Assembly: GCF_037975245.1 (NCBI RefSeq)
Contig: NC_092579.1
Span: 3,496,001-3,560,000, forward strand
Reading direction: 5' to 3'
Length of the DNA: 64,000 nt
DNA from: Apostichopus japonicus
Lineage: Eukaryota > Echinodermata > Holothuroidea > Aspidochirotida > Stichopodidae
In this document: piece by piece, positions 27,688 through 64,000 of the stretch
Position numbering within the stretch: the stretch's first letter is position 1
Layout: each line of letters begins with the position of its first letter
Program-made: the position numbers and the translations under genes
The notes under the pieces: model-generated
What the model was told of the DNA's origin: nothing
The model's database searches: none
What the model saw: only the letters and a program-made list of their open reading frames with translations

Positions 27688-30600
27688 TGGTTTGATTATA
27701 TTTGCAAACTGTTACAAAAAATGGAAAAACAAATTAAAACGTTATTTAAATTTCTGACATTAAGGATAGAAGATGAATTAACAGCTCGTCTATAATTTAA
27801 AGTATATATGGTTCCTTACCAGATCCAATTTACAACATAAGTATTAGCATACACAGAGCAACCAATTCAAATATTTAATCTCCTAATACTGCCGCAAGCT
27901 GCCAGATGACTCGACATCTCTGTAAATCTGGAAAAAAAAATCTACATATTTTTAACACTAAACTAGAAAAGATGACCCCCATAATGCAATTGGAAAAGAT
28001 ACACTTTATCTCCAATAAAGTGAGAGGAAGTAAATTTCTATCAAACCCCCAAAACAATTTAGAAATTTTCAAAGCCACTTATAAACCAAGTAACTGTTCA
28101 ACTCTTCCTTGAATGAAGTCTGATTAAGGTAGGGGGATAAACTTCTGTGGAATGGTCCGTGGCGTATAGAAGGATTTTGTAAAAGAGGGCAGTTGCCATG
28201 GGGTCATTAAAGCCAACACTTTATGTACAATATAAAAATTAAAATTTTAGAAGTCAAATGTAATAAAATAGGTATATATAAGTAGCTCTACATGCGAGAT
28301 TCTGCTAATAACTAGTAAGAAACACCCAAATTCAGGTTGTGACTTGAATTGTTATGGGAGGGCCAGTTGCAAATGAAGTATTTTATAAAGGAGGAGTGCT
28401 ACTAAGGTCAACTCTCATGTATGGGGATCTGGGGACCCCCCCCCCCCCCTCCCAAAACATTGAGAGGTCAAATGATGCATTCTGAGGTATATTTCAACTA
28501 GAACTTAGTTAGGTCTATGCCTAAGTATGAATATCCCTCAATGCAAGGTTTGTGTGAGGTTGAAAACACAGGGGGAAGGAGGGATTGTACACCAGCCCAA
28601 TTCTTCCCGGTCTCAATGCAAAATTCCCCTACCTGAATTATTTCAACCTGAATAATGATCAGATGTGAGGAACCATCCCCCCCCCCCTTCCCTTTTTGGC
28701 ACATGTGACTGTCATCCTGCTCTTGTAGGATTGCTTCCACATGCATCCATTTAGGACCAACAACACACAGAGTAAAAAGGTTCTCAAAAGTCATTTGGGC
28801 CAAACTAAGATAGGGGACTGAGAAGAGGTAGGACATCTGCCTAGTTCCTACGCATGATGGCTTTAAGTTCAAAGTTCAAGCTGGCCTAGCCTACTTGCCA
28901 CTTAATATACATTCCGTGGCTAATCTAGTTTGTTGTAGCAAGAAAACCTCAAATAAGTCAGGAGTCGATTACGATAAGCATGCCTGATTAATGGTAATGA
29001 TACTAGATTCACGAAATAAACATTTTGTCCCAGTATTACAGACTTTCTACATTAAAACACATATAAATATGGACTAAACCCACGATGCAATTTAAAGTGA
29101 TGGTACTTCTTCTTCTGCTGTGCTTTACTTTAATGAAGAGTGACAAACATTTTCTGTACATCAACATTCAACAAGATATGTTGGAGATGTCGTTTTCTTG
29201 GAATCATCATCAAGAAAAATAATCCAAATTGCGTCATCAATAACAAAGATATTACACCAACTAGAGGTAGTCCGACCGCCAACAAATTATATTAGGGGAA
29301 TTGGCGGTGTTGCTCATGATTCATTCCTGGTGCCAAAAAATGACTAAATTACAGAATTGAATTAGCCAAAATGGCAAAATAATTTATTCATACTATAATG
29401 TGAAAACAATGTATAACCTCCACATCGGGATCAAACCCGAAAGCTGTCTCCTTCAATGGAGTAAAGAAGGACGTATTACTGTGATAAGTAATAAATAGAA
29501 ATAATATTTAGTATCGAAGTCTCTAGAAAAGTAGATGGCTACCGCCCACCATCTTTCTTAGATATTTACCACAGATTGCTTTCTCAACCAGGCTGGGCGC
29601 CTATAGATCTTTGGTGAATGTCGTATCCGTCGGTTGGATTTCTTTTCTCAAAATAATTATTTATAGCGCCATCACTTTGTGAATCCATTCACGCAGAAGA
29701 AAATCTGGTCACCATTACCACAACCAGGAAAACTGTCATTAATCGCTTGATCTGATATTTTTCTTGACAAATTTGCAAAGGACAGTTAGATCCACCAAGG
29801 TCTGTTGGTTTTTACAACTTTTAAGGTTTGTAACTCTCATGTCACAGATTAAGAGATCCGAACGCTAGGAGGAGTGTCCGTGCTTAGGCCTGTAATAGTT
29901 GTACACTGTACAGTATCGGCCCCTCTTCGAATTCTTTATAACACACGGTTGGTAATGAATGATAGGAGATTATGGTGTTACACTTACTACTAGTACTACT
30001 TGGTTAGGCCTGCCTAACGTTGATATGATAGGCCTTACGGTAGGCCGAATGTACACGAAGTTATTGTACCGGCACACGTCAGGTACCAAGTATTCATGTT
30101 TTCATGTAAACAATGTATCGAAAGGCACTCATTGGTATGTGGAACATTGAAATTTGAAGGGAAAAAGGCCTAAATGTTATATTCCAAGTTCCAACTGAGG
30201 CCTCATTCTTATTACCAATACAATAGTATCATTTAACCGTTAGTCATACTCAGTCATGTTGAACAATATATTGGAATGTATAACAAGTTAGTCACTATAG
30301 CGTAGGTGCAATAGGCGTTCCTAACAATACGAATTATCACAACAACAAGAAACAGCAATGTGTTGTTATGTCATATATTTAAACTGACAATTTCTCATTG
30401 CTCAATCCGTTGTTGGGTTAGTCCTACCATTGGCATTACCAATGCAAATCAATTTGACTGATTATGATATCACTGCTAAGCTGTCAATGTTGGTTACCAG
30501 TGTTTGGTCTGGATGGTTTATTACACATAGGTCTAAGCCATCCCAGACGACAGATTATTCCTTAAGAAAAAAGAAAAAGGGTAAGTTTATAGAAAACAGG

Positions 30601-31219: not shown

Positions 31220-31307
31220 ATCCAAGCAACCTCCGCAGTGATTGGCAAGCTCATTCTTGTAAGGGACCTGTTCCCATCTTTTCTAGACAACGGAATAAAC
31301 GCAAACT

Positions 31308-34300
31308 ATGTCCACCATGAGGAAAATGAAAAATGTTGTGAATAACTATAGCCCCGCTGAAGTCAAGGTCCGAGAGGCCACTTCCAATGATCCATGGGGG
31401 CCTTCAAGTTCCTTGATGTCAGATGTAGCTGATCTAACCTATAACGTGGTCGCCTTTTCGGAGATCATGACGATGATCTGGAAGCGTATTAACGACCACG
31501 GTAAAAATTGGCGGCACGTCTATAAGGCTCTGGTGCTCTTAGATTACATCATAAAGACAGGGTCAGAGCGTGTAGCCCAACAGTGCAAGGAGAACATTTT
31601 CGCTATTCAGACTCTTAAAGATTTTCAGTTTTACGACAAAGATGGTAAAGACCAAGGGTTGAACGTCCGAGAGAAGTCCAAGGCCATGGTATCATTACTG
31701 AAAGATGACGAGAGGCTAAAGACAGAAAGGGAGAGGGCACTGAAAGCCAAGGAGAGATTTGCGATGGCCTCTCAGGCAGTCGGCAGTGCAGGCAGCGATG
31801 AAGTAGAAATAGGGAAACCTGCTGCTGATGAGACACAAAATCCAGAAAGTAAGGGCTGCTTTTGTCTTATTGTGTTTACCAAGTCATCTATCTTCCAGGG
31901 GCTAGTCATCTATCTAACAGGGGTAGGGAAAGGGCCCGGGCAGTACCTCTCTGTCAGAACTAGCACATTCATCTCCCCTTCAAACGTAATGCAAACAAAA
32001 TTTTGTGCTTGAGAAAAATAATACCTACTCAGACACAATCAGTGACATCAAAAATTTGTTTGATAAAGGACTTTGTTGATGTTGATTAAAAAATTAAACA
32101 AATGAAATATTTCAATGAGATATTTGTGGAGATTTTTGTGTAGAAGCTATTGTTAAAGATAGGTAGGAACAACTCTGTAGCATTGCTTGATAGATAGATT
32201 GATAGATTGTTAAACATGTATAAACCTGTAATTAGGAAGACTACATTTCTAGTTTACAATACGTCAATTTTAATTACATTAATGGGTTATATTTCTACAT
32301 ACAGCAAATTTTTAACTTTAAGTTCACTTGATACGTAAGAAAAAGCATAATTCAAGATGCTGTGTTGAAAAGGAGTTATGATTATCTCAAACATACATTT
32401 TGCAAAACTCTGGGAAGAATACATGCCTATATGTGAAAAGTTGTTGTTCACACCCTCTATAGCCTAACATGGTAGTGTGTGTACTGTCCAAAGGAGACAT
32501 TCACTGTATAGGAGGATAATGAATTGAAGGGTTGTCACAATGATCAATGTCAACTGAAAATTTGTATATCGAGCACAGTAGTCTGACCCAAGTTATTGAG
32601 TGCCTCGCAATTATAACCTATTCACAGCACTTTTTAAGATAAGCACCCTATTGATGTAACCAATGGTTATGTCAGCTAGCATCAAGCTCATTTCATATTC
32701 TAATCTCCAGTTTCTGATGCGTCATTTGTTTCTCCCTCCCAAGGGGCTCCTCCTGCCTCTGAGATGGAGCAGGCCAGGCCACAGACAGCAGGAGAAGAGG
32801 AGCTCCAGTTACAGCTTGCGATCGCCATGAGCAAGGAAGAAGCAGCAAAGTCGGAGAAAGAGCAGAAACATGACGATTTGAGACTTCAGATGGCGCTGTC
32901 AGAAAGTGCAGACGACCCCGAAGTAAGTCAAGAGTCAACTTGTTAACATTGGTGAATCCAGGATTTTAAAAAGGGATGGGAATATGGCCCTCAGGGGGGG
33001 GATTCCCTTGTAGGGGGCACCCTTTTTTCTTTGTGTGGGATTGAAAGGGGTGTGGGTTCACCACCCCTGTCCTTCCCTCCCCTCCCCGATGATATTTAAA
33101 CCAGATTGTTATTTGACTCGGTACATTCTTTGTAGCTGTTTGGTAGCACAATGGGGTAAGTCTTGCATCAAATGAAGTGTTCATAGACAAGAGAAACATT
33201 ACTTGCGTTTTTGTTGAATGTTGAAAAATATTTAGCATAGTTGTCCCATGTCTAGATTTATGTAAACTGCAATATAAGTTATGTTTAATTTTGTGACCTA
33301 AATAAAGTGTTAAATTGCTGACAGTGGAAGCGGATGAGGGAGGGAGGGGGGTGGGAATGAAGGAGCATCTGATAGATGTTTTGTTGAACTCAAACCACCT
33401 AATTTGTCAACATTATGTTCTAGTTCTTGTGACAATTTCCTACACTTTGGTTTTGTGGTTTTTAAAATATCTCATCTAAGAAAGATAAAGTCTGTTCTAA
33501 CTAATGCCCCACCCACCCATTGTCATTTCTATAGCTGGCACACGAACAAGCCACATCGACTTTACTCAATCTGGTCGAGACACCGCAACAGCCAACCCCT
33601 CAGGCAGATCCATGGGGGGCAGATCTTCAGCCGAGTGTCCCTGGTAATGATCCCTGGGGTGTACCTGCTGCCACGGTCAGTGCTCCAATTTCTGTAAATG
33701 ACCCCTGGGGGTCGGGTCCATCTCAGACATCCGTTTCACAGCAAGCTCTCGCCGCAAAGGATCCTTGGTCTAGCGATCCTGCTGCCCTACCGTCTGAACA
33801 GCCAGTCCCTAAGCCTGATCCTTGGGGTACTCCACAGGCCATGCAGCCAGTGCATGATCCCTGGGCACCCAGTGCATCGGTACCAATGAAGCCACCTCAG
33901 GATCCAGACTCCGAGTTTGATTTCCTCCGTAACGAAGGGCTCATGTCATCTTCCATCGCCATGACAACTCATACTGTACCACCCTCCTACCCTCCTCTCC
34001 AGACTAACGGAGGCCTACAGCCACAGATGAAGACCAAGCCGGAGGACTTTCTAGGAGCAAATTCCAGTCTGGTCAATCTGGATTCTCTGGTAGGACCAAC
34101 CCAAAGCAATGGACCGGCCCTGACCGCCAGTAATCCATTCCTAATGACTGCTGTGACTGGCGGTGCCATGCAACCCCCGGCATCTAATCCCTTCCATCAG
34201 CAGAGGGCACCTGCTCCAACTATTAACCAAATGAGACAGCAACCTTTCCAGCAGCCAACTGTACCCACAGGGTCCTTTCACACTAGCTTCCCTGCAGCTG

Positions 34301-34383
34301 GGGAACCATCTCTGCCCCCACCTCTTCTCCCTGTAGCAGGATCAACACAACCTCAAGGTGCCCAGGCCAACCCTTTCTTGTGA
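31308..34383 (+). CDS. EPN: Epsin, ENTH-domain endocytic adaptor, complete (3 coding exons, 533 aa)
   Basis: Coding exons are 31308-31848, 32711-32922 and 33535-34383, 1602 bp with phases 1 and 0. An acceptor at 31218/31219 shows the start exon has an upstream untranslated partner. Residues about 1-145 are an ENTH domain (NYSPAEVKVREATSNDPWGP, GKNWRHVYKALVLLDYIIKTG, NVREKSKAMVSLLKD), which binds PI(4,5)P2 and bends membrane. Exon 2 carries two ubiquitin-interacting-motif-like helices, EEELQLQLAIAMSKEE and DDLRLQMALSES. Exon 3 has six DPW motifs (AP-2 binding), a clathrin-box-like LVNLD, and three NPF motifs (EH-domain binding), the last at the very C-terminus (ANPFL). It acts at clathrin-coated pits on ubiquitinated cargo. 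Invertebrates usually have one epsin, so the vertebrate paralogue number cannot be assigned. The reading frame past 31848 is intron read-through. Confidence 0.95.
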
Positions 34384-40212: not shown

Positions 40213-43200
40213 TCAACTCGTATTTTCAAAAGACTTTTGTCCGGTAACGTAAGGATTTGGGGGAACTTCTGCAAATTCTGCTTTAATGTTCTTCAATAGA
40301 GCATCTCCTCCAGGTAGTAGTAACTGCAGTGCTGTGAGAGCCATAGCCTTAGCTTGTATCAAAGTTGATTTCTGGGCACCTGGAGAACCTGTGGAATCAA
40401 GGGGGTCAGAGGTTAAAAGGAGACCCACCATGTTGTAGACAAACGATCATCCTGCGTGTTTTGTTTTCTAGCTCAGCGATACTTACACTTCAATGATTGA
40501 ATTTCTCTACTAAATTAATATATTCATTGATAATAATCCTGTTACTAGACACACTCAATTTCATTGGTTGTTTAACTAGTGCAGGTATAAATTTTAATTT
40601 TGACCTGTAAACGGGAAGTTGCAGTATCTTGATACAAATTGCACACAAATGTCATCATCGAAACATTGGCTGAAGTTGTCCCAGTTTGTATCAAATGGGA
40701 ACTTGAAGTGAGAGATGCGATTTAGTTGATGCAAGGTTTAGCTTTATATATATTTCACTCTACTGTTTGAACTTAATATTTGGCACAATTATAACTTTGA
40801 AGCATAATGATTGTATGTCATTTATGGTTGAATGTCAAATATGGTTGTTTGTCATATATGGTTGTTTGTCATATATGGTAGTATGGTTGTATGTCATATA
40901 TGTTTGACATGTCATATAGGGTTGTCCAATGCTACAGTTGCCCTCATGTCAGTCATAAACGGTTGTATGTCATATATGGTTGACATGACATTGATGGTTG
41001 TTTGTCATATATGGTAGTATGGTTCTATGTCATATATGTTTGACATGTTATATATGGTTGTATGTCATATATGCTTTGTCCGATGCTACAGTTGCCCTCA
41101 TGATATTCATAGACAGTTGTATGTCATATATGGATGTATGTCATATATAGGTTGTATGTCATATATGGTTGACATGTCATGTATGGTTGTATGTTGAATA
41201 TGGTTGTTTTGATGCTACAGTTGCCCCCATGTTAGTTGTCTAAAACCCGAGGTCAATCTCTTACAAATTTTAAAAACCCACCTGCTGCGGTAGTGAATTC
41301 CCTAGAATGATTGGGAGCGTCTGTGTTGATGGCATACATTGGGTGAATACTGGGCACAACAAACGAGACATTTCCCATGTCGGTGGATCCCCCAAGACTT
41401 TTCACAATCTTATCATCTTTACTGAAGTCCATTCCAAGGCTCTCACAATTCTTTTGGAATAGATCTGCCAGCTGAAGATTGCTCAATACTTCTGCATAAA
41501 AACTTTCATATTTAATATCAACCTGTAGATAGGAAACAAACAGTTAGATCATGGAAGCATCAATCAACTTTATTCGTTTTTCTACCACTGAAGAAGGTGT
41601 AGAGGCACCACAGAGGTTGATATGGTTTAATACTCAGCTGGATTTCCAATCAAGTAGGAATAAGTAGAACACAGTGAGTGATGAAATTACTTTGTCAAAC
41701 AGAGAATGATAAATGCTTGATAAAAAGTGCATTAGCTGTGATGAGACAGGTGAGAGTGGAAGATTGAGAAAGAAGACTTAAGCATTAGAGCACAGCACTT
41801 TGTTGTGTAGAATACACATCTATGATGAAGCATACAGAGTAGGCCAACAACAGAGGGGACAGGTATTCCCTGCTTTTATTTGAGCACATGCACACAGCTT
41901 TCAAATGAAAAATTGTGCTACTTAACACAATTTTTCATCTGTAGAAACAATATGAAACTATGAAAATGTTCAGTGTGTGTGATGAAATAGGAGGAAACTT
42001 ACATTCAAGGATAAATGCTCTTTTGAAGTGAAAAATGTGAATATACCACATGACCGGTCACATGATAATTATTTCAAATCGACTAGAAATGTGTTATAAA
42101 CTAGATCTGTAATCAAAATTAAGTTGGTACAGCACACTACAGATCCATAATGAAGCATGTACAGTATGTAACTAAGAACCTGGCCTAACCAGGATATAAT
42201 CCATACTAAGAAAAGCAAAAACAGCTGCAAATAAAGTTGTCTCTTCAGGCTTTTCCATAAACTTAACTCTTTTGCCCAATCAGACTTGACATTAGATTCA
42301 ACAGAATAACACACTGTATGATTAACCCCTGAGAAAGTAACTAGAAGACCTTCACATTATCTGGATAATTAAGTTTTCCCATAGGAAAGTGTATATTTTC
42401 ATTGCAAAAATGGGAAATTCCTGACAAATCAGGAACCATGGTTACCATAGATGATGAACATACTCAAAAGAAGTTTTCTTTATGTAACACTTACTGTGCA
42501 GTCTGCAGCTATTGCTGCTCCTTTAGCACAATTCTCACATTTCTTCACGACAGATTCCAGTTCTACTGTCTTGGATGCTCGTATGTAGTATAAGAGTTCT
42601 GCTTCTTCAGGAATTATATTGGGTCTGCTGCCACCCTTTGTAAAAATACCTGGGTATACAAAAAGAAGAAACTTTTAAATTTCAATGTAAAAAAACAGTA
42701 CAAGTATACATATTAAGGGAATGTGGCAAATGACTTATACAGCAAATAGTTGGTAGCCCATCCAGATTACTGCTGTTTATAAGTTTAATTAGAAGCTAAA
42801 ACAATTCAGAAAAATTATGCTGAATGAAATGAACGTTCTTTCATAACGTTTGGGGAAGAGTATTTCCATATTTATTTACCGTGGACTCTAACATCCGGGC
42901 GGAATTGCTGCCTCTGAGCAGAGATGCCAGTGTAACATTGAACGGCAGCATCCAGGGCGTTTCTACCCATCCATGGGCTCATGGCTGCGTGGGCAGCCTT
43001 ACCATGAAAATGATACCTCGCCCTAAGAGAGAGAGACCATATAAAGCAAGGATGTTACAGGCTGACAATGGAAAGAGGGGGAAAAGCTATTAACATATTC
43101 CATTATTCACTTAATATGTAAATAGACTGAAGTGTATATTCCTGCTATGCAATGTGAGAACAATAACGAATGTACAAGTCTGGATTCTATACCAATTATA

Positions 43201-46200
43201 GCACTATCTGAAGTAAAAAACTTAAGTCTATGTTGTAAAGATGATTTGTTACGTTAGAAGAAAACATGACATAGAGCAGCTTGGAAAGCAAGGTTTCAGC
43301 CAGAATATTTGCAAATGGGAGATTAAAATTTGCCTTGGTGTCTGGCCTGCTGGTCCCTTAGTTCATGAGAACCACCATCCATGGGAATTACAAGACTAAA
43401 TGAGATTACAAGGAGTGGAATGATATCACACATGAAAATAGAACACTGGGTGAATGTCACTTTGTCCGCAACATAGCACGTCATTAGTCAGTCCTGTATA
43501 GTAAGATATACTAGATTGATCCATGATTAATCTTAACGATAGCTAATGAGTTTTGACGAGAACTTTTAGAGGAAAGTTAGATCTGCACATTTGCAATCCA
43601 AAACCCCATCCCAAACACCCGCCCCCCCCCCTCTGGAAATGACAGACCAGAATTGGACAGTGAAAGCTCCCCTGACTGTTACATAAGAACAGAAGCAAAC
43701 TCTACTTTTTTTGATAAACCACAGAATGAGCGACAAGCACATATTTAACGATTCGGTCTATATAGTAATGGTTACAAAATGTCAATAAAAGCAAGAGCCA
43801 CAGTTCAGCAAAAGGATAGGGAGGGGGAGGGGTGTGAGGGGGAGGGAGGGGTGTGCTGATATATACACAAATATGTGGGTTTCATATCCAAAGCACAGCA
43901 CTGTGGCAATTAAAACTACCACACAATTCACTAGAGTTTGATTTACCAATCGTTTGGCTTCTTCATAGCCACATGAATATTTTCCATTAAAGCTATTAAA
44001 GGATGCCATAATCATAAGGAAAAGAATCAGTGACTTTACAATATGAAACTGAGTTGAACCAGATAAAGACAAGGCTAATAATTTAATCAAAGAAAAACAT
44101 GCACAGATGTGACATGCAACCAGAATTTTGAACAAAATATTAGACAAAATTTGTTATATTTGTTTCGTCTCATTTACATTATGAATACACAAGAATGTTA
44201 ATTAGCTAACAAATTTTGAAACAAATTTTTTACATAAAATACTTTAGTTCAATGGTTCTTGTTGTACATGAGACACACTGTTTACACAAGTAGCCACACT
44301 CACTTCTATTTTCAGGTTCGGGTGTTACTACCATATTTGCTGTCATGTAAGATGATGTGCCAAAACCCTTTATTAAACCAGTCTACATTATATAATTAAT
44401 TGACTAATGTGACTATTGTTTCCTTTCATAATAATTTTCATATTTAAACTAAAGTGATAGAAAAAAAAATGATTTTGAAAATGTCTTAATCAAGCCTGCA
44501 AAGAAATGATAGGTGATGTCCAAGTATTTAAGTAGGTACAATGTACAACTAAATATTTCTGAACTACTTCCCGAATGACACTCAAAGTGACTTACTTTCT
44601 ACGGGCAAAAAATCCTGGTACATTGGCATTTTCATTTGCAGGATGAACCATCATTGCAACATCAAGGCCCATAAATGCACCGCCCTCTAGCATAGTGACC
44701 TTGCCTGCACCCCCTTCCTCAGCTGGTGTACCAAATACGATAACCTATACCGAAAAGGATAATGGATACACTCTTGCCAAATTACTGACATAATATGGCA
44801 CCAATGATGGCCTTGTTTTCTTTGTATTTGTTTTGTATAAATAATGCATGAAATGCATAAAATAATGCATGAAAATACACAACAATACGCCTATAGCGTG
44901 TCAAAGGAAAATGGCGGGACATCTAGGCAGTTCGCAAAAAAAACTCGAAGGCGGAAACGCACTAAGAAAAACAGTCCCCAAAACCCTCCCTTTCAATAAA
45001 AGGATACTTATCGGTCTGGAAAGGACTGCAATACTCCTAAGAATCCGAAGAAAGAAACTTCCAAGGATCGTTAAAGAAAACCAAGACGAAATTCAAGGGA
45101 AATCTTTCCACAAGAATTTTGCGTGTAGACACTTTTAACGGTAGAATGAAAAAGGAAGAGTGACCGGGTGGGGGTCCGGTCATAGAAGGCGCACAGTGTT
45201 ATTATTTTACTAGGACTTTACAGGCACAGTAGAATGAGGTGCTAAGGTTGTGAGGAGACAGGTAAGCGAGGAGCGAAGTAAATTTTCAGTTAATCAATGT
45301 GAACCTTTCACATTCACTGACAATGTTTCATTATGAGCAATCTGTGGAAGTCATAATTTTGATGTTGGCTGTATGGATTGCTATTTGCGCAGAGTGATGA
45401 TGAAAACGGGGCCGGTTGAATGTGAGGAAACAGGAGCCAGCAAGCTACAGAGCAATAGTGAAAAGCATTTCAATATAACTAAGTACTTGAGTTTATACTG
45501 CTTTACAAGTACTTCATACTCATGAAAGATACCCAGGTGTTAAAGTACTCATACTCATCAATCATGGAATGAGTTTTGATAAATTGTTTTAGTTTGAGCA
45601 TGCTATATAGCAGGCAAAGTATCCAATGTACGTAAAGCAATGAAACCAGTGAATTGAGTATACATGCATTACCACTGCTATTGTCACAACCACCATGATT
45701 TCACAATGACTGAAATGGAAGGAAATTGAATTTGAAAGGAAAGCCTTGTAATGTACCAGGAAAACATCAGTTGATACTCCAAAAGCAGCATAATGTGACT
45801 GATATTATCATACTGCAAGAATATACATGCATAGCAGTTATTTATACACATATGGGTCATACCATAATTAGGGTTCTACAGTTATTATGTTGCTGAGGCT
45901 GAGAAGGCTGCAGCTTTCGTGCAGACAGGCTGCATATGACATAATCTGCTAAGCTTCGCAGACCAGTGCTGCTGATCTGCAGAGATAATGTCTATTGTTT
46001 GATATTGATTCAGTCCTTGCTTCTGGGGATTTGGCAGCTGCTGCAACTTTTCCCTTTGCCATGGTGCCTTGCCCATACAAACCAACTTGGTAGATATCTG
46101 ACTTAACATTCGGTAAAGGTAGCCATTTTATTGCAAGGGTGAACAATGAGACTATAATGAACTATCAATTTCATGCATGCACTTTTTTCCCCTTTTTTTG

Positions 46201-49200
46201 TTGCTACTTTGCAATGACAGGTACTCAATTGAAGCTACACAAAAGAATAATTTTGTGATGTACAATGTAACAGAGATAGAAAATTTCACCAATTTGGATG
46301 TCTTCTATTTACAGACTGGCGTATCCAACAAAACTATTGTTTGCAATAATGAAATTTAACATTTTACAGAGAAAGGTTGAAATAACAAATGATATCACAA
46401 AACTTGATTCATCTGTAAAGACAAGCTCTGTACATCAAGAGAAAAGGACCGGGGGAGGGTTGATATAGGGGCAAAGGGCCACCTGTTGCAAACCCCAGTC
46501 GTCCTGTCACATTTGTCTGCTGACATACCAGAAAGTGGTAAACAGGTCATCAGTATCTAACAGTAAATATGCCAGAATGTCTGATAATGGTCACCCACTC
46601 TCTAATAATGGTCACCCACTCTCCACTCTCTAATGGTCACCCACTCTCACTCACTCTCTAAATTAACCCGCAGTATCAGGGCCTCTAGGAAAAACACTTA
46701 AATTGAAAACTTCTAGCAATTGTTTGCATGCTTATATTTAGGAAAATGACTGTTGACTATTTTTAACCTGCAGGTTAGAACAGCAGAGAATGGGATGGAT
46801 TAGAAGGGGGCAGAAGAAAGAGGTGGATGCAGGCAGATGGAAAAGGAGAAGGAGGCAGACTTGTGGAGGATTTAGCTAAGCCTCTGGATTACAAAACTGT
46901 TTTTCTTCAAATTGGAAGTAATCCAACTAGTCAAGCTGAAACTATGATATCAACCAGGATTTTGGACTATCTCTCTGTCAAAGACCATAAATAGGAACCA
47001 AGCTGCTCTACATCCCAAAGTATAAATGCTACAAAACCAGATCAACTTACTGGATGGATGTAAGTTTGTTAGGTTTAGCTATAGAAGCCTTGTAAGGATG
47101 TACCATCATAGCCACATCGATACCCTCTAGAGCTGTTCCTTTGATCAGCAATGCTTTGCCACATCCTCCTTCTTCTGCAGGGGTCCCTAGAACAATTACC
47201 TGCAATGTTTCAAGGATGACTATATGTGAAGGCACTAAATTAACATACACATTCAGACTGCAGACTTTAATGGCGCATTGCACGTTACGTTTCCCACAAT
47301 ATGGTGGTTACTTACTAAAGAAGACATAAGGTAAACTGAAATGATTCATATATCTGTTTAGTTTAGTCCAACCAACAGCAATGATCTACAAATGGGCAGT
47401 TAGCTGCAACACTTTCAAGCTTCAACACTCTTCAACACTATAAAATAAAACATGATTCAAGCAATTGGGCTAATTTAACAAGTATTAGCATTTGAAGAAT
47501 TTTCATCACACTGATCTCTTTCAGGTTCATGAATTGTATAGGTTAACTTCCAAAAGTAATTTTTCATAAAGTCTGCTGACACATTTTTTTGTCAGGTTCA
47601 TACATTTTTCCAGCCCCAAATGCATCATGAATTATACAGCTCTCAATTTGAGTGTGAAGTAAATCACACAGAGTATTTCAAAAGGCTACTTTTTTTCAGA
47701 AAAGATACACATTTTTTGAAGGACCGAGAAAAGCAGGCGTTAATAAATTTTGAAATGACAAAAGAAAATCTTAGTCCAATTTTAACTTTTTTTTTGGAGA
47801 CATTCTTATGGCACTGCAGGGTTATACAAACAGCTATTTATTGTAATGGAATCCACACAACATAATCACACACATATCAAACCACCATCAACCAATCTAT
47901 CAAAATACTTCCACAACTTTCTGCTGCAATTCACTACTTGGTTGTTCAGAGGTCATCACATCAACTAAACCTACACAATTGAAATTTAGAGTCATCCCTG
48001 CAATTGCAGAGTTTAGCATTATTACAGCAATATTTGTATCGAGCATGAAGTAATGGGAAGCCATGTGTTATTTGAAAGGGGTTCATGACTTTCACAACAA
48101 CAATATATTAAAGCAATTGTGAAGTAGAAAGAGCTATTGGAGAGTATCATACAAACAGTACATAACTTTATATTGCTGCAAGGGTATGAAGGCTTATATC
48201 ATAATAAGTCTGGTGTATATGATGATATGAGAAATTATACTGTAAAATGCAAATCAGTTACTCTACGTTGGCCAAATTAGACTGTGTCAATTATATATAT
48301 AAAATAGATTCACAAGTATCCAAACTCATAAAGAAAACTTGATTTGTTCCCAAACTACTGAGAGTACTAACATACCTACAAGGAGAAGTAATAATGGGTT
48401 ATAATGGGTACAATTGACTCTTATATATCCTGTGCACTCTCACAGAATATAGGAGAAAGGGAACCAGTACCTTGAGACATGTTTCTGAGGAAAGCAGAAC
48501 ACAATGGTGTTCATCTTAAACCAGTACGGCACTGGAAGTTAAATGGGTCAATTTGAAGACACCATAGAGGAGTTAAGTGAGTGTTAAGGAAGTAGTGAAT
48601 CTGGGTCGTTCTTAAAGAGATCGTTAACCCCCTGCCAACACTCCTATGTAGGCTACTTACTCTTCCCCTTGGTTGTTTCATTTGTTCAAGGGCAGCTTTA
48701 ACACCAAGTGCTGCACCTATGGCAGCTTCTGCGATGAGATTATGTCCACATGCATGGCCTATGTCTGGCAAAGCATCGTACTCAGCCATTAGTGCTATTT
48801 GAGGTCCATCATCGTTACCAAAGGATGCCTTGAAGGCTGTCTTGAGGATGTATTGTTTTTGAACCTGGTAAATGAGAAGATAAAGGTATTAGGTTAACTT
48901 AGAACCAGTTTGGATGATTGAATTAAATCAAATGTTATTCAACTCACAAACAATATTTATAATCACCGTCAAACATTTCATACGTACATCACTCAACACA
49001 ACTTTATGGATCTATTTGAAACAACAGTTCACTAAAACAAAGAGCAAACTTTATCAGAAAAGTACATTCAGAGGTGAAACAACATCCAACATAAAACGGG
49101 TAAGATTTACACTAGGAGATGAGGAAGTCTACAGAAGTTAAGGAGTTCAAAACAATGTTGGTGCACCATGGGTTGGTGGAAATCATCCTTCTCCTCCCCT

Positions 49201-50083
49201 CCTCCCTCACCCTCCTGGATTTGTTATAATTATTTCAAAGTTTTTAATGGTCGCCTGAAGCAACAAATTTTCTGTTTGGACTGCAATGAAGGTTACCCTA
49301 CACATTGTTTACATCAAATTCGGATTGCACTCTTACTAAATACCCCCCAAAAATGATAATTGATATCACCCAGAATAGTGGTAGGGCTCTGATCTACCCT
49401 ACCCAAAGCCTAGCATTCGTTCACAAAACCTACACATCTCTCCTACAGCGTGCATAGTGATTATTCTTTGCTGTCTTGCTACATTTTTCGGCGATAAAAA
49501 AGGAAGACTTAGTTTTCCGAGGGACAACCAGGATAAATCCTTTAAAGATTCACCCTGATTATTGTTTGCTTTATTTAAGGTTCCTTACGAGCTGCAAAAT
49601 AAATAGACTTCTAATGAACTTCCAACCAGAGCTGTATTAGCGAGCACTGTCAACGTTTTCAAGAGCCAACTCGACAAGTTCCTGAGAAGTAATGTGGGAG
49701 CTCATATGAGCCATTGAATGGCTCCCTGCTCCGTCATCCTCCGCCTATCACCTGCTGAGAAGTGGAGGGTACAGGTAAATACAGGTAAATAACTGATACG
49801 TGCAAGGCATGACACTTTGACTCAAAGACTTTGATTGTGTGAAATAAAGTCAAAATGTGTTTTTGCTTTGTTAGCTTCTGCTGTTCTCTACATTACATAT
49901 ATATCGTAATGCCTTTAAATCCATTAAACCAACCTGAAAACCTTCTTTCTCCAAGAATGTTGTCAGAATTTCATGGGCATGGTGCTCTTCAAAACATAAT
50001 TCTGGGTTATTCCATAGCTCCTGGCTCAAGGTATTCAACCTCTCTGAAGAACTATCGATTTTGTCTACAGCTACAGCCTCCAT
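40213..50083 (-). CDS. PM20D2: PM20D2-type M20D dipeptidase, complete (7 exons, 402 aa, alternative exon 3)
   Basis: Exons in transcript order: 50083-49934, 48864-48661, exon 3 (47199-47051 or 44744-44596), 43022-42880, 42649-42495, 41522-41282 and 40379-40213; 1209 bp in frame with either exon 3. The family hydrolyses dipeptides containing basic residues, such as beta-alanyl-lysine, as metabolite repair. Visible landmarks are ELWNNPELCFEEHHAHEIL (residues 23 on), AEYDALPDIGHACGHNLIAE with metal-site Cys89 and His91, GTPAEE with Glu127 (base) and Glu128 (ligand), GKAAHAA with His179, and SIHPMYAIN with His327. All five expected metal ligands and the catalytic Glu are present, so an active enzyme is predicted. 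No signal peptide is visible, so it is probably cytosolic. An acceptor at 50104 implies a non-coding first exon upstream. It forms a same-strand tandem pair with the paralogue at 57761-62355. Confidence 0.93.
40790..41235. repeat. Minisatellite of TGTATGTCATATATGGT units
   Basis: About 450 bp of imperfect copies of (GT)TGTATGTCATATATGGT. A second-order repeat is seen as GATGCTACAGTTGCCC(C/T)CATG-like blocks at about 40930, 41090 and 41215. It lies in the last PM20D2 intron and creates a spurious ORF rich in CHIW. Confidence 0.88.
44596..44744 (-). CDS. PM20D2: PM20D2 alternative exon 3b
   Basis: A 149-bp exon (acceptor TTTTTCGGTATAG, donor GTAAGT) enters in phase 0 and leaves in phase 2, exactly like exon 3a. 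It encodes VIVFGTPAEEGGAGK...GLDVAMMVHPANENAN. It keeps the catalytic Glu-Glu and, from memory, resembles vertebrate PM20D2 slightly more than 3a (HPxxENA). Using both copies would shift the frame, so they should be mutually exclusive. Confidence 0.88.
46562..46665. repeat. Short tandem repeat AATGGTCACCCACTCTCT
   Basis: Four imperfect copies of (AATA)ATGGTCACCCACTCTCT lie in the intron between the two alternative exons of PM20D2. Confidence 0.75.
47051..47199 (-). CDS. PM20D2: PM20D2 alternative exon 3a
   Basis: A 149-bp exon (acceptor ending TTGCAG, donor GTAAGT), phase 0 in and 2 out. It encodes VIVLGTPAEEGGCGK...GIDVAMMVHPYKASIAKP. About half of the 49 residues match exon 3b, with the Glu-Glu loop and DVAMMVHP conserved and the C-terminal 15 residues diverged. 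Confidence 0.88.
49530..49860 (+). mobile_element. 5'-truncated LINE remnant
   Basis: At about 49617-49727 one frame encodes ELPTRAVLASTVNVFKSQLD, continuing KFLRSNVG...SH and a stop. This matches the typical end of non-LTR reverse transcriptases, (WN)xLP..VV.A.SVN.FK..LD. It is followed by a short AT-rich tail. Everything upstream is lost. It lies on the plus strand in PM20D2 intron 1. Confidence 0.65.
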
Positions 50084-57760: not shown

Positions 57761-58218
57761 TTAGTTAACTGTCACTGTGGGTACTTCTTTCTGTTCTGCT
57801 GCTTGGTCATTTGAGCCCTCTCCTGCTGGTTTGCCCTCGCTGATATTGTCAGTTGTAACATTTCCTTCTGCAGCTTTGCTACCTTTGTCATCCAAATCTG
57901 CAGCCTTGTTCCAATCGGTACTGCTGCCAACATCATCAGGCATTGCTTCTCGGGCTGGTTCTGGGGTCTCAACCGGGGGTCCGTTTTGCAGATTAGCACT
58001 GACTGCTTCTCGGGGTAGTGTACCTTTGTTCCCGTAAGGAGTATCAGCTGGTTGGTTCATTGGTATTTGACCGACAACTTCAGACGGTGGGGTCAACTTT
58101 TGGAACTCTTTATTGATACTATCAATTAGTTTTGACCCTCCAGGTTGCAGAAGGTCAATAGCTGTTAAAGCCAATGCTTTTGCCTGAAGTAGAGTAGCCT
58201 TCTGAGCCTCTGGTGCAC
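57761..58218 (-). CDS. Last exon of the PM20D2 paralogue with disordered C-terminal extension
   Basis: The first 45 or so codons align with the PM20D2 last exon (AQKATLLQAKALALTAIDLL). The remainder, from about GQIPMNQPADTP to QKEVPTVTVN, has no counterpart in the neighbour. It is acidic, low-complexity and predicted disordered by composition. Confidence 0.88.
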
Positions 58219-61200
58219 CTGAAAGTATGAAAAGGATATCACCAGCTAGATGTGCCTATCTTGCAAACTTCTTACCCCATGTTTTTTATCATTAAATAAT
58301 TCATAAAGTCAACCTGTGATTGACTGTTCATTGGTCAAAGTACCAATCATGGCTCATAAGTTAGGCACAACATTTCAGTTTACAAAGCTATATAATGACT
58401 ATTACCAAATGCCAGGTCCAGCCTAGGGGCTGTTCTGACATTACCCTTGTACAGCGCTTCAAGATAATCTGGGAGGCGCTATATATATAAGTAGTATGTA
58501 TCATTATTATGGTTTCCCATATTTTGATCAATAAACACATCATGAGGTCGCAATGCCATTAGCTCTCCTCATGTCAAAACTGCACTGTCCATTAATGTGA
58601 TTGAACACTGCATTTGATTTGACACTAGTGTAGTCTTCAGTCAAGCATTTCACACAACACTGTGGTGTAAATCAGTGATTGATTTAACCTTAGACCTGTC
58701 ATAACGGACCACCAATCAGTGATTGATTTAACCTTAGACCTGTCATAACGGACCACCAATCAGTGATTGATTTAACCTTAGACCTGTCATAACGGACCAC
58801 CAATCAGTGATTGATTTAACCTTAGACCTGTCATAACGGACCACCAATTTGATGTCACTCAGCATCACCATCAAGTGAGAATAAGAAATGTTAACAGTTA
58901 TGTAATCCGCCTCTTAGCATTACATAAAAACCAAACTTTTATCAATTATCTTGAATAAAATATGCCACTTTAGGCTGTCTCTTCAACTTTTAAGAAGTTG
59001 AACCCAGTCAAGAGAGTTTCATACTTAATTAGAAAACTTTCTGACATGTAGTTACTAGTAGTAAGTTAGTACTGTAAATGTCACTCGAGTCTGATACATT
59101 TCCATGCAAGGATCATCTCTGCTTCAAAATTATTACCATGTCAACTATTGTGGACGGTCTTGTATCCTATCATGACATGACATGGATACAAAATAACACT
59201 AGGCTTACCTGCTGCAAGAGCAAACTCCTTGGTATTATTCAGTGCAGCAGTGTTTATGTCATATAAAACATGGATAGATGGAGTGACGAAGGAGACATTG
59301 CCCATGTCTGTGGCTATCCCCACTGGTAGATTCTGTTCCTCCTTCAGAAACTTCAGTCCCAACTCGTTGCAATGTTTCTTGTAGAGCAGAGATAGGTGGC
59401 TGTTGGTTTTGAGCTCGGCAAAGTATGATCCATACTCAATTTCAACCTGAAAAGGGAATCGGCTATCAGGTTTAGTAAAATTATCATTTTTGAATTTTTG
59501 GTTGGTTAGCACTGATAATGAGTCCTTCCGTTTTCTAGTCTCATATAGTTTGTCTATTGCCCCTAAAGTTTTTAGCTAAAGTAATAAATCTGATAGTTCT
59601 TTATTGGGGGGTCTAACATATTATTAACAGATAATAGTGTTAGACATACTGGTAAATTAGAAAATAAATATCCAAATTAGTAGAATTTCAAAAAAGTGCC
59701 CTGTTATAAGAGAGTTTGTTGAACTCTGGAAAGCTTTTGGATATTTGTGCAAATTAGGAGACCGGCTTTCATAAATGTGCAGTTTTCATTTTTTATTCAA
59801 GATTTGATGCTGAATAATTAAAGTGTCATTGAATTTTGGGTCAAAAGTCAAACATTAGCTTCTCTCCAAAGTGTTAATTACTGTATGTATACTTTGAACA
59901 TGAATTTCCCATTTTGGTGTATTCTATATTGGACTGTACTCCTCTGTACTTACAGTACATTGTGTGGCACTTGCAGCCCCTATGGCACAGTCTTCACATT
60001 TCTTGACCGCTGGTTGCAATTCAGCTGTTGTCGAGGCCTCTATGTGGAACAACAATTCAGTTTGGTCCGGAACTACACCGGGGTGGTTGCCACCGTTTAC
60101 AAATACCCCTAAATTATGACAAAAGTGAACAGGAAAACATTTTATTTTGGTGAGAGATTTAGTGAGATGATATAATGTCTTGTAATATGAAAAGACATTC
60201 AATTTTCATGCGACAATGTCTCTTGAATGTTGAATAATGTTTGGTCATTAGTAAGTTAATGTTGACATGAAGTAATTTTAAGAGGCTACTTTTAAGAATA
60301 ATGCACTTCAGGACTCATGCAGTGTCTGAAGGAAATTCTAACAATGTTTGTCATGAAAACATTCAATTTTCTTCTTATTTTCCCAATTGTAATTCGTCCA
60401 GCTTCAAGTTTTCGTACATGGCAAAAACGGACTAAGTTTTGTTCTTACCGTGCACTTTGATGCTAGGTCTCAAATGTTTTCTCATAGCGGCAATACTGCT
60501 GTAACACTGAACAGCTGCATCTAGAGCATTCCTACCATCCCAAGGAGCCAAACTTGCATTGGCTGACAGGCCATGGAACTTGTAGCGTACCCTAAATGAA
60601 TAAACAGAGAGCATCCCATTCATCTCCAGCAGCCCTCTCATTGCCTATTTCCCATCATTTCAATGGTAATTGTTTTGTGTAAATCACAAAGCTAACTGGC
60701 TTTCTGGATTAAGTTTTTGCTCTCTTAACAATAGTAAGTAGCTGTTAATTGCAGACTATTGCCAGATCATGAAACTACTGTGTCGAAGTGTCAGTTGCAC
60801 GCTTCATTTTGCTTAGATGCAGGCAAAGTGGAAGCTAACAGAAGGTTCCATACCAGGTTGTCAACTCATATTTTGCAGTATGTATCATCATTCATAATTA
60901 CCCCTGTATCAATAAAAATAAATTGTAGGTAGATATCGAAAGATGTACTGTATACATTATTACGCCGTTATTTATGTAGCGCATAATCCACAAGTTCTAT
61001 GCACTTTACAATTAACCCTGGTCATTGGTAACTTGTCACACCTACACACCAAAGTGTGCACAATTCAAACAGTCTCTCCTGGGGCACAACAGTGCACCAC
61101 AGCCACGTGTCCCCTGGGGGACTTCCCATAGGGTGCAGCCACAAACCGGTTCACGCAAATATATTTACAAGTCACCTCGCAAGTCCTCATTTATACACCT

Positions 61201-62355
61201 GGGTGAAGAGATGTGGCCCAAGGACACAACGCAATGATCTGGCCAGCCAGGGCTCGAACCTGTAATCCTAAGATCACAAGTCCACTGCCTTAACCACTTG
61301 ATCACAACGCCCTCAATGTTTGAAATTATTGACTTACTTTTCCAGGGCCTCTTGTCGTGGTTTAAGGATGTTTTTATTGAATGGACTAACCATCAAAGAT
61401 GCACTAATGCCAAAAAATACACCAGCATTGATCAACTTCTGCTTCCCTGCTCCAGCATTGCTTGGGCATCCAAAAACTATGATCTGTAAATACAAAGAAA
61501 ATTTAATTTTATAGAAAAATTGATATTAATATGCCAGATGAAAATACCTGGCAACCCACCTATGTACCTAAGAATAACTTATGATAGTATTGTAGAAAAT
61601 ATTCAAATATACAAGTTAATGTATTCAAATAAATATGGGGGAGGGGCAGGAAGAAATATTTTAACTGTGTCTCTTATTTCTTTATCTTTTTTTTGCAATG
61701 TTAAGGAACACTATAGCAATTGTAATGGTTACTCTCAATTAACATACTTTTTAAAGGGTGTGAAGACTCGCACAAAAAGAAACGTCTAATGCCCGTAATC
61801 TGACCTAGTTTCGAATGAGGTGTATTACAGAAGTGTTAGACACCACCATCGATCTTAGAAAATACACACACAGCTTGCTACCGTTGGTAATTAGACACTA
61901 GTGTACAGTCAGTACAAACAGCTGCGGTCAATACCCACAGCACATTGTACTGTACAAACGATACAGCGATGGACATCTCAGGTCCAGCTAAAGATAACAA
62001 GGTATCTCGTTTCATTACTGTCTGCATTTTGTAGCGACACGAACAAAACGTCACTTGCAAGCAATAGGAAGTAAACTTTTTCAGATGGCCGCATGCGGTT
62101 TGGGGCGAGTCTTTAATGCCTTTAACTTAAAGACTGTCTCCTTACTTTTCCTTTTTGGACCTTCTGTTCCATACTTTCTAATGCAGCTTTGACCCCCAAG
62201 GCCACACCTATTGCACTCTCTGCTACCAGATTATGTCCACTCGCATGACCAATGTTTGGCAGGGCGTCGTACTCTGCCATGACGGCCACTGCCCTCCCTC
62301 CGTCGTAACCGTAGGTCGCACGGAAGGCAGTTGGGAGGATGAAGTTCCGTTCAAC
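57761..62355 (-). CDS. PM20D2 paralogue, probable pseudoenzyme (exons 2-7; exon 1 beyond window)
   Basis: Exons in transcript order: 62355-62146, 61483-61338, 60591-60449, 60108-59954, 59446-59209 and 58218-57761; 1350 bp open, with the same phases as PM20D2 at every junction and two exons of identical length (143 and 155 bp). The fold motifs persist (AEYDALPNIGH, GRNALDAAVQCY, ATDMGNVSFVTPSIH). However, the metal-site Cys in GHACGHN is Ser (GHASGHN), the catalytic GTPAEE is GCPSNA, and the ASH-type His is Asn (LSANAS). Only two of five ligand positions remain, so dipeptidase activity is unlikely while the frame and splice sites are intact. The last exon adds about 95 residues rich in E, D, P, G and N after the usual end. 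It is a tandem duplicate of the upstream-coordinate gene on the same strand. Confidence 0.9.
58400..58512 (+). mobile_element. SINE/LINE 3'-end fragment
   Basis: A run like GTACAGCGCTTCAAGATAATCTGGGAGGCGCTATATATATAAG followed by TATCATTATTAT has the GCGCTATATAA plus (ATT)n ending seen on many marine invertebrate SINEs and on the SINE at 60955-61313. (Longer motif positions: 58448-58505.) Only the tail is present. Confidence 0.4.
58671..58846. repeat. Perfect tandem repeat, 4 x 44 bp
   Basis: Four essentially identical 44-bp units starting ATCAGTGATTGATTTAACCT begin at 58671, 58715, 58759 and 58803. The lack of divergence suggests recent expansion. It lies in the last intron of the PM20D2 paralogue. 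Confidence 0.95.
60955..61313 (-). mobile_element. tRNA-derived SINE
   Basis: On the minus strand it starts AGGGCGTTGTGATCAAGTGG, giving an A-box-like TCAAGTGGTTAAGGC, and about 45 nt on a perfect B box GGTTCGAGCCC. A roughly 270-bp unrelated body follows, ending in TTATGCGCTACATAAATAAC and a short (TAA)-like tail. This is the tRNA head, body and LINE-like tail layout of a SINE. It abuts exon 3 of the PM20D2 paralogue, ending 24 bp from its donor. Confidence 0.8.
61751..62125. mobile_element. TTAA-flanked miniature element, copy 3
   Basis: TTAA at 61751-61754 and 62122-62125, with TIR AGGGTGTGAAGACTCG and CGAGTCTTTAATGCCT. It matches the copies at 24504 and 38469. It sits in the intron only 20 bp from the end of exon 2 (62146) of the PM20D2 paralogue, next to its splice donor. 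Confidence 0.85.

Positions 62356-64000
<1,645 letters not shown>

Follow-up and report, generated by a model that had tools for sequence, protein, structure and literature searches.

A tandem pair of PM20D2-type genes

PM20D2 is an M20D beta-alanyl-lysine / Xaa-Arg dipeptidase, and the human enzyme is cytosolic (PDB 7yh4, 8xzc, 8zei, 8zel). We analyzed a stretch of 64,000 nucleotides from the sea cucumber Apostichopus japonicus (the window; C19:3496001-3560000, contig NC_092579.1), in which a first-pass annotation made from the sequence alone had pointed to an intact PM20D2 paralogue with an erased metal site. Searches of the whole genome covered 671.6 Mb in 35 contigs. We found that the minus strand of the window carries two tandem PM20D2-type genes, the paralogue (62355 to 57761) and its neighbour (50083 to 40213), both models being predicted from DNA. 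The paralogue appears to be a complete PM20D2-like gene, with seven coding exons (1 and A to F), of which six lie inside the window:

62146..62355, minus strand: coding exon A, with the motif HASGHN (210 nt, phase 0-0; 67% identity to exon A of the neighbour over 64 amino acids)
61338..61483, minus strand: coding exon B (146 nt, phase 0-2; a codon less than its counterpart in the neighbour)
60449..60591, minus strand: coding exon C, start of the lid/dimerisation domain (143 nt)
59954..60108, minus strand: coding exon D, lid domain (155 nt)
59209..59446, minus strand: coding exon E (238 nt)
57761..58218, minus strand: last coding exon F with stop codon TAA (tail coded by 57764-58072)

Exon 1 was found about 1.5 kb beyond the window end, outside the range given in the first-pass annotation, at C19:3561457-3561627 (65457-65627 in window numbering). 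It is 171 nt long, holds 57 codons and joins exon A in a compatible phase, so that a missing start was rejected. Exons A to F encode 449 residues, and with exon 1 included the open frame comes to 506 codons. The splice borders of exons A to F are all canonical AG/GT, and the exon phases of paralogue and neighbour match one to one. The description of the gene as intact in frame, exon borders and phases thus held, with no stop or frameshift in the 449 codons within the window or the 57 of exon 1. The C-terminal tail comprises 103 residues (57764-58072, minus strand; 18 acidic, 8 basic and 2 aromatic) that are absent from the neighbour, and in the structure prediction it has very low predicted confidence, as do disordered stretches.

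Two simple repeats lie in the introns of the paralogue. In the first intron, 80.5 copies of the dinucleotide TA form an array shortly upstream of exon A (62764-62924). The last intron holds a perfect tandem repeat (58670-58848; 44 bp unit, 4.1 copies, 100% matches), the cleanness of which suggests a recent expansion.

Loss of catalytic residues in the paralogue

We aligned the paralogue with 12 active-type references, namely the neighbour, human PM20D2, Staphylococcus aureus HmrA and nine bacterial relatives; residue numbers below are those of the active neighbour. Sixty-seven columns are invariant in the 12 references, and the paralogue keeps 51 and loses 16 of them: Glu32 (Asn in the paralogue), Cys89 (Ser), Ile94 (Val), Val119 (Ile), Ala126 (Ser), Glu127 (gap), Glu128 (Asn), His152 (Ser), His179 (Asn), Gln206 (Lys), Asn226 (Gly), Arg239 (Glu), Gly312 (Ile), Ser313 (Ala), Pro328 (Val) and His339 (Asn). 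Replacements placed by alignment are as follows:

62239..62241, minus strand: Ser codon AGT at the bridging metal-ligand Cys (neighbour C89)
61454..61459, minus strand: Asn-Ala at the base and ligand Glu-Glu (neighbour E127-E128), with a deletion of one residue
61385..61387, minus strand: Ser codon AGT at the metal-ligand His of MVHP (neighbour H152), the fourth ligand
60558..60560, minus strand: Asn codon AAT at the lid-domain His (neighbour H179, in AAHAA)
60077..60079, minus strand: Gly codon GGT at the lid Asn (neighbour N226)
60038..60040, minus strand: Glu codon GAG at the lid Arg (neighbour R239)
59312..59317, minus strand: Ile-Ala in place of Gly-Ser before TDMGN
59234..59236, minus strand: Asn codon AAT at the C-terminal metal-ligand His (neighbour H339), the fifth ligand

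The five M20D metal ligands, which we take to be Cys, His, Glu, His and His as in M20D structures such as ILL2, are reduced to a single one in the paralogue (1/5, H91). The Cys to Ser change and the replacement of Glu-Glu by Asn-Ala had both been called in the first-pass annotation and were confirmed, the former at the bridging metal-ligand position; PMC11511702 describes an M20D enzyme whose zinc ions are bridged by a cysteine. At the Glu-Glu site the paralogue reads GCPS-NAGAG against GTPAEEGGAG in the neighbour, and the general-base Glu is absent. The site is one codon short; which Glu was deleted depends on the alignment, and no Glu remains either way.

The third change that had been called, His to Asn at 60558-60560, is present, but the residue is not a metal ligand. 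Roles of lid His, Asn and Arg are described for PepV, PepD and carboxypeptidase G2 (CPG2) in PMC6271292. The Asn226-Arg239 spacing of 13 in the neighbour equals that of CPG2 Asn275-Arg288, and the His179-Asn226 spacing is 47 compared with 46. This close match in spacing identifies the residue as the lid His; in the paralogue the lid His, Asn and Arg have become Asn, Gly and Glu. The earlier list of losses was therefore real at its three sites and incomplete, missing H152, H339, N226, R239 and the Gly-Ser before TDMGN. The paralogue retains E78, D80, H87 and H91. Losses in the catalytic set are spread over exons A to E, and most of the lost catalytic codons are two or three bases apart from those of the neighbour, which would point to an early loss of catalysis. 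A sequencing or assembly error as their cause was rejected as improbable, as these are separate one- to three-base substitutions in five exons.

Because four of the five metal ligands, the base and the lid His, Asn and Arg have been lost, the paralogue should be unable to assemble the two-metal centre and no peptide hydrolysis would be expected, and we infer from these residues that the paralogue is without catalytic activity.

Losses are concentrated in the active site of a fold predicted to be kept

The concentration of losses was tested on 183 columns in which the neighbour has the human residue. The paralogue departs at 8/9 catalytic positions and at 6/36 of the remaining positions that evolve no faster (Fisher p = 1e-4). 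In a stricter set made up of the five metal ligands, the base and the lid His, 6/7 were lost compared with 8/38 elsewhere (p = 0.002). The catalytic sets came from knowledge of the M20 family but were fixed after some of the losses had been seen, and both p-values are therefore optimistic. With this reservation, the proposal that losses are concentrated in the active site was upheld.

Structure prediction of the paralogue monomer gave the M20 two-domain fold with its lid domain, a check that had been suggested and that agrees with a kept fold. The paralogue passes the Pfam M20_dimer cut-off; for TIGR01891 amidohydrolase it scores 148.5, below the cut-off of 153.75, and the neighbour scores 209. 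No match of the paralogue to Pfam Peptidase_M20 was seen (E up to 0.1; for the part in the window, E up to 10), while the neighbour scores 40.2. A whole-genome search with Pfam PF07687 gave 0 matches though the gene is present; the exons probably split the domain, and the search is uninformative.

Descent and selection

Paralogue and neighbour are sisters in the tree (support 97.6/97) and share 54% identity (204/377 columns); branch lengths are 0.62 for the paralogue and 0.22 for the neighbour. In a phmmer search of PDB sequences the best match of the paralogue was PM20D2 (Xaa-Arg dipeptidase; E 2.1e-71). On sequence grounds, the paralogue belongs by descent to PM20D2 / M20D. Genome-wide exon searches matched only the paralogue and its neighbour (best candidates scored), with 15 and 14 exon matches that all fall in C19:3536216-3561627, and further PM20D2 copies that might confuse the assignment were thus rejected.

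We compared the two copies over 403 codons and found a ratio of nonsynonymous to synonymous differences per site (pN/pS) of 0.42 (bootstrap 0.37-0.49; pS 0.72), with estimated substitutions per site of 0.39 (dN) and 2.5 (dS, saturated). The pairwise ratio, which comes from one sequence pair and mixes both branches, is far below the value near 1 that had been named as a sign of decay. The saturated dS indicates that the duplicate is old. The frame of the paralogue has been kept under selection, as read from this one pair with saturated dS.

The active neighbour and its two alternative exons B

The neighbour keeps all nine catalytic positions, and its coding exons are as follows:

49934..50083, minus strand: coding exon 1
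48661..48864, minus strand: exon A, with HACGHN
47051..47199, minus strand: exon B1, alternative metal-site exon (149 nt)
44596..44744, minus strand: exon B2, alternative metal-site exon (149 nt)
42880..43022, minus strand: exon C
42495..42649, minus strand: exon D
41282..41522, minus strand: exon E
40213..40388, minus strand: exon F with the stop codon

Exons B1 and B2 are both of phase 0-2, have canonical splice sites and carry Glu-Glu and MVHP; 25/49 of their residues are identical and 24/49 differ. The neighbour encodes 405 residues with either copy, whereas a transcript model with both or neither has a broken frame and a premature stop. B1 and B2 would therefore be mutually exclusive, provided that both are used, and this putative pair of metal-site exons could switch the substrate range of the enzyme. 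Exon B of the paralogue is identical to B1 at 17/48 and to B2 at 19/48 residues, and an origin from one or the other is not told apart. In the openly licensed literature we found no report of mutually exclusive exons in peptidase M20.

A probable protein-coding pseudoenzyme and its alternatives

Taken together, the age of the duplicate, the 506-codon frame, canonical splice sites, pN/pS of 0.42, predicted M20 fold and concentrated losses argue for a pseudoenzyme, and the claim that the first-pass annotation had made is well supported by them. We consider it likely, with good confidence, that the paralogue is an old PM20D2 tandem duplicate turned protein-coding pseudoenzyme; very probably it is no broken gene but a partner or binding protein without catalysis.

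Several observations weigh against this interpretation. Departures at non-catalytic positions by rate quartile are 6/43, 11/43, 15/43 and 14/45 (permutation 927/10000), and outside the catalytic set the slowest quartile differs from the rest at p = 0.045, a weak link between conservation and retention. The lid, identical to that of the neighbour at 62/112 residues, is no better conserved than the catalytic parts (87/164 and 58/108). The pN/pS value suffers from the mixing of branches and the saturation of dS noted above. Furthermore, the active relative HmrA departs at 17/84 columns that are invariant among the others (human PM20D2 at 6/73). As HmrA departs at as many columns as the paralogue, a count of losses carries little weight by itself; judged from the alignment, it is the location of the losses that is extreme, and not their count, which a distant relative could also show.

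Among the alternatives, the one that survives best overlaps the pseudoenzyme reading. The paralogue might be a ligand-binding sensor or carrier in which a dipeptide or an N-acyl amino acid is bound, not cut, and the tail passes on the signal. The kept predicted fold and the new 103-residue tail of very low predicted confidence are consistent with this. In relatives, however, substrate is bound by the lid Asn and Arg, and these are Gly and Glu in the paralogue, so that canonical substrates should bind poorly, and we regard such a role as unlikely.

A decaying pseudogene that looks intact by chance or through recent death is a much less probable explanation. The faster branch of the paralogue speaks for decay, as does the weak tie between retention and site conservation outside the active site. 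On the other hand, the duplicate is old, yet its frame is unbroken, as are the splice sites seen, and 51/67 invariants are kept; the early loss of catalysis to which the lost codons would point is also at odds with decay. In neutral simulations from the neighbour, 300 run to 60% identity and 300 to 75%, one run in each set was free of stops and the median first stop appeared at 3.2% amino-acid change; the simulations were run without indels, which makes this a mild test. A branch that was neutral throughout would need a dS close to its own share of dN, which would fit poorly with the saturated dS between these tandem neighbours. Death may also have been recent, following long constraint and falling within the last few percent of change.

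The prospect of a re-purposed enzyme, in which the pocket with H91, E78, D80 and H87 carries out another reaction that may need a single metal or none, seems more remote again. The four retained residues and the kept predicted fold favour it, but of the known ligands only one in five remains, and both the base and the lid residues have gone.

Finally, that transcripts with hidden alternative exons restore the catalytic residues is extremely improbable: the neighbour does have two copies of exon B, but losses in exons A to E would require five alternative exons, and searches of 14.5 kb around the paralogue (57501 to window-equivalent 72000) gave no convincing restoring exon. Beside the known exons, tblastn searches of this region with exon-B segments (B1, B2, human and bacterial) and with the exons of the neighbour returned only weak matches (E at least 0.038), the best at 60847-60891 (E 0.038) and 62942-62989 (E 0.050), both without Glu-Glu and in frames closed by a nearby upstream stop. 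A scan of the same region for seven catalytic motifs gave 0 matches; in 10.5 kb of the neighbour, as a control, it gave 12, of which 11 were its own exons.

A candidate brake on the active neighbour

As a pseudoenzyme, the paralogue would most likely work by contact with other proteins: it might pair lid-to-lid with the active PM20D2, or its long flexible C-terminal tail might make it a scaffold. Lid-mediated binding or regulation of the neighbour, the role that had been suggested for it, is compatible with a score that still passes the Pfam M20_dimer cut-off, yet the lid is no closer to that of the neighbour than the catalytic parts are. In the related dimeric CPG2, as set out in PMC6271292, the lid Arg of one subunit contacts the lid His and Asn of its partner. 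In a CPG2-like heterodimer, His would be replaced by Asn and Asn by Gly in one shared site and Arg by Glu in the other, and the paralogue's own catalytic domain would hold no metal centre. Such a heterodimer would be silent or weak in both sites, making the paralogue a titrating brake (dominant negative) and not an activator. Since all three cross-dimer lid residues have been lost, a brake is the predicted outcome.

We tentatively suggest that the paralogue might be a dedicated brake on the neighbour while the neighbour is tuned by the choice of B1 or B2, a two-layer control of dipeptide metabolism that we consider doubtful as a whole. Among the matches listed, the openly licensed literature contained no earlier report of such combined brake and exon-switch control. 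The related enzyme PepD weighs against a brake: according to PMC6271292, its lid residues meet within one monomer, and mutation of the lid His had little effect, whereas mutation of the Asn halved and of the Arg abolished activity. A scaffold or sensor that uses the tail is the main alternative to the brake.

Other features of the window and genome

Open frames resembling epsin, with an ENTH-like start and DPW repeats, lie at 31299-34380 (plus strand), and one resembling tRNA-dihydrouridine synthase lies at 27349-27711 (minus strand); both were recognised by eye. COX1 was seen on two contigs, at C35:82-768 (L028) and, in two pieces (L029/L030), at C29:15357-16044, which could mean that the assembly has two mitochondrial contigs or that one copy is nuclear. 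Set against an echinoid-like COX1 stretch, to which it is 89% identical, the mitochondrial COX1 reads AAA as Asn (8/8 codons), AGA as Ser (3/3) and ATA as Ile (12/12); echinoderms and flatworms are known to use this code, which together with the identity indicates an echinoderm.

Comparison with known systems

In the openly licensed PM20D2 literature, no dead paralogue appears in titles or abstract starts among the matches listed. A search of the same literature for pseudoenzymes and M20 gave no M20D case, the match concerning a Clostridioides peptidase, and nothing was found on sea cucumber M20 proteins or on details of the M20D lid; PMC13311154 mentions PM20D2 but adds nothing about its structure. 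Dead paralogues that regulate living sisters are known from several families of enzymes, the AdoMetDC prozyme, deoxyhypusine synthase and Fam20A among them. According to PMC6271292, the active site in some M20 dimers receives residues from the partner subunit; a dead paralogue that keeps its lid would therefore lend itself to testing catalysis across subunits and the way in which beta-alanyl dipeptide metabolism is controlled.

Compared with human PM20D2, the paralogue has lost 8/9 catalytic positions and has the extra 103-residue tail. The S. aureus M20D peptidase HmrA (3ram), in contrast, keeps all nine. The tandem sister of the paralogue is alike in sequence (54% identity) and in exon phases, and unlike in its kept catalytic positions, its two exon-B copies and its short C-terminus. 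The fold of the AdoMetDC prozyme is unrelated to M20. The likeness to the Trypanosoma brucei prozyme, a dead AdoMetDC paralogue described in PMC5201418, is one of function only, a dead paralogue that pairs, or here might pair, with its living sister, and the enzyme family is a different one; the same text has the prozyme activating its partner, whereas the sea cucumber paralogue is predicted to silence its own.

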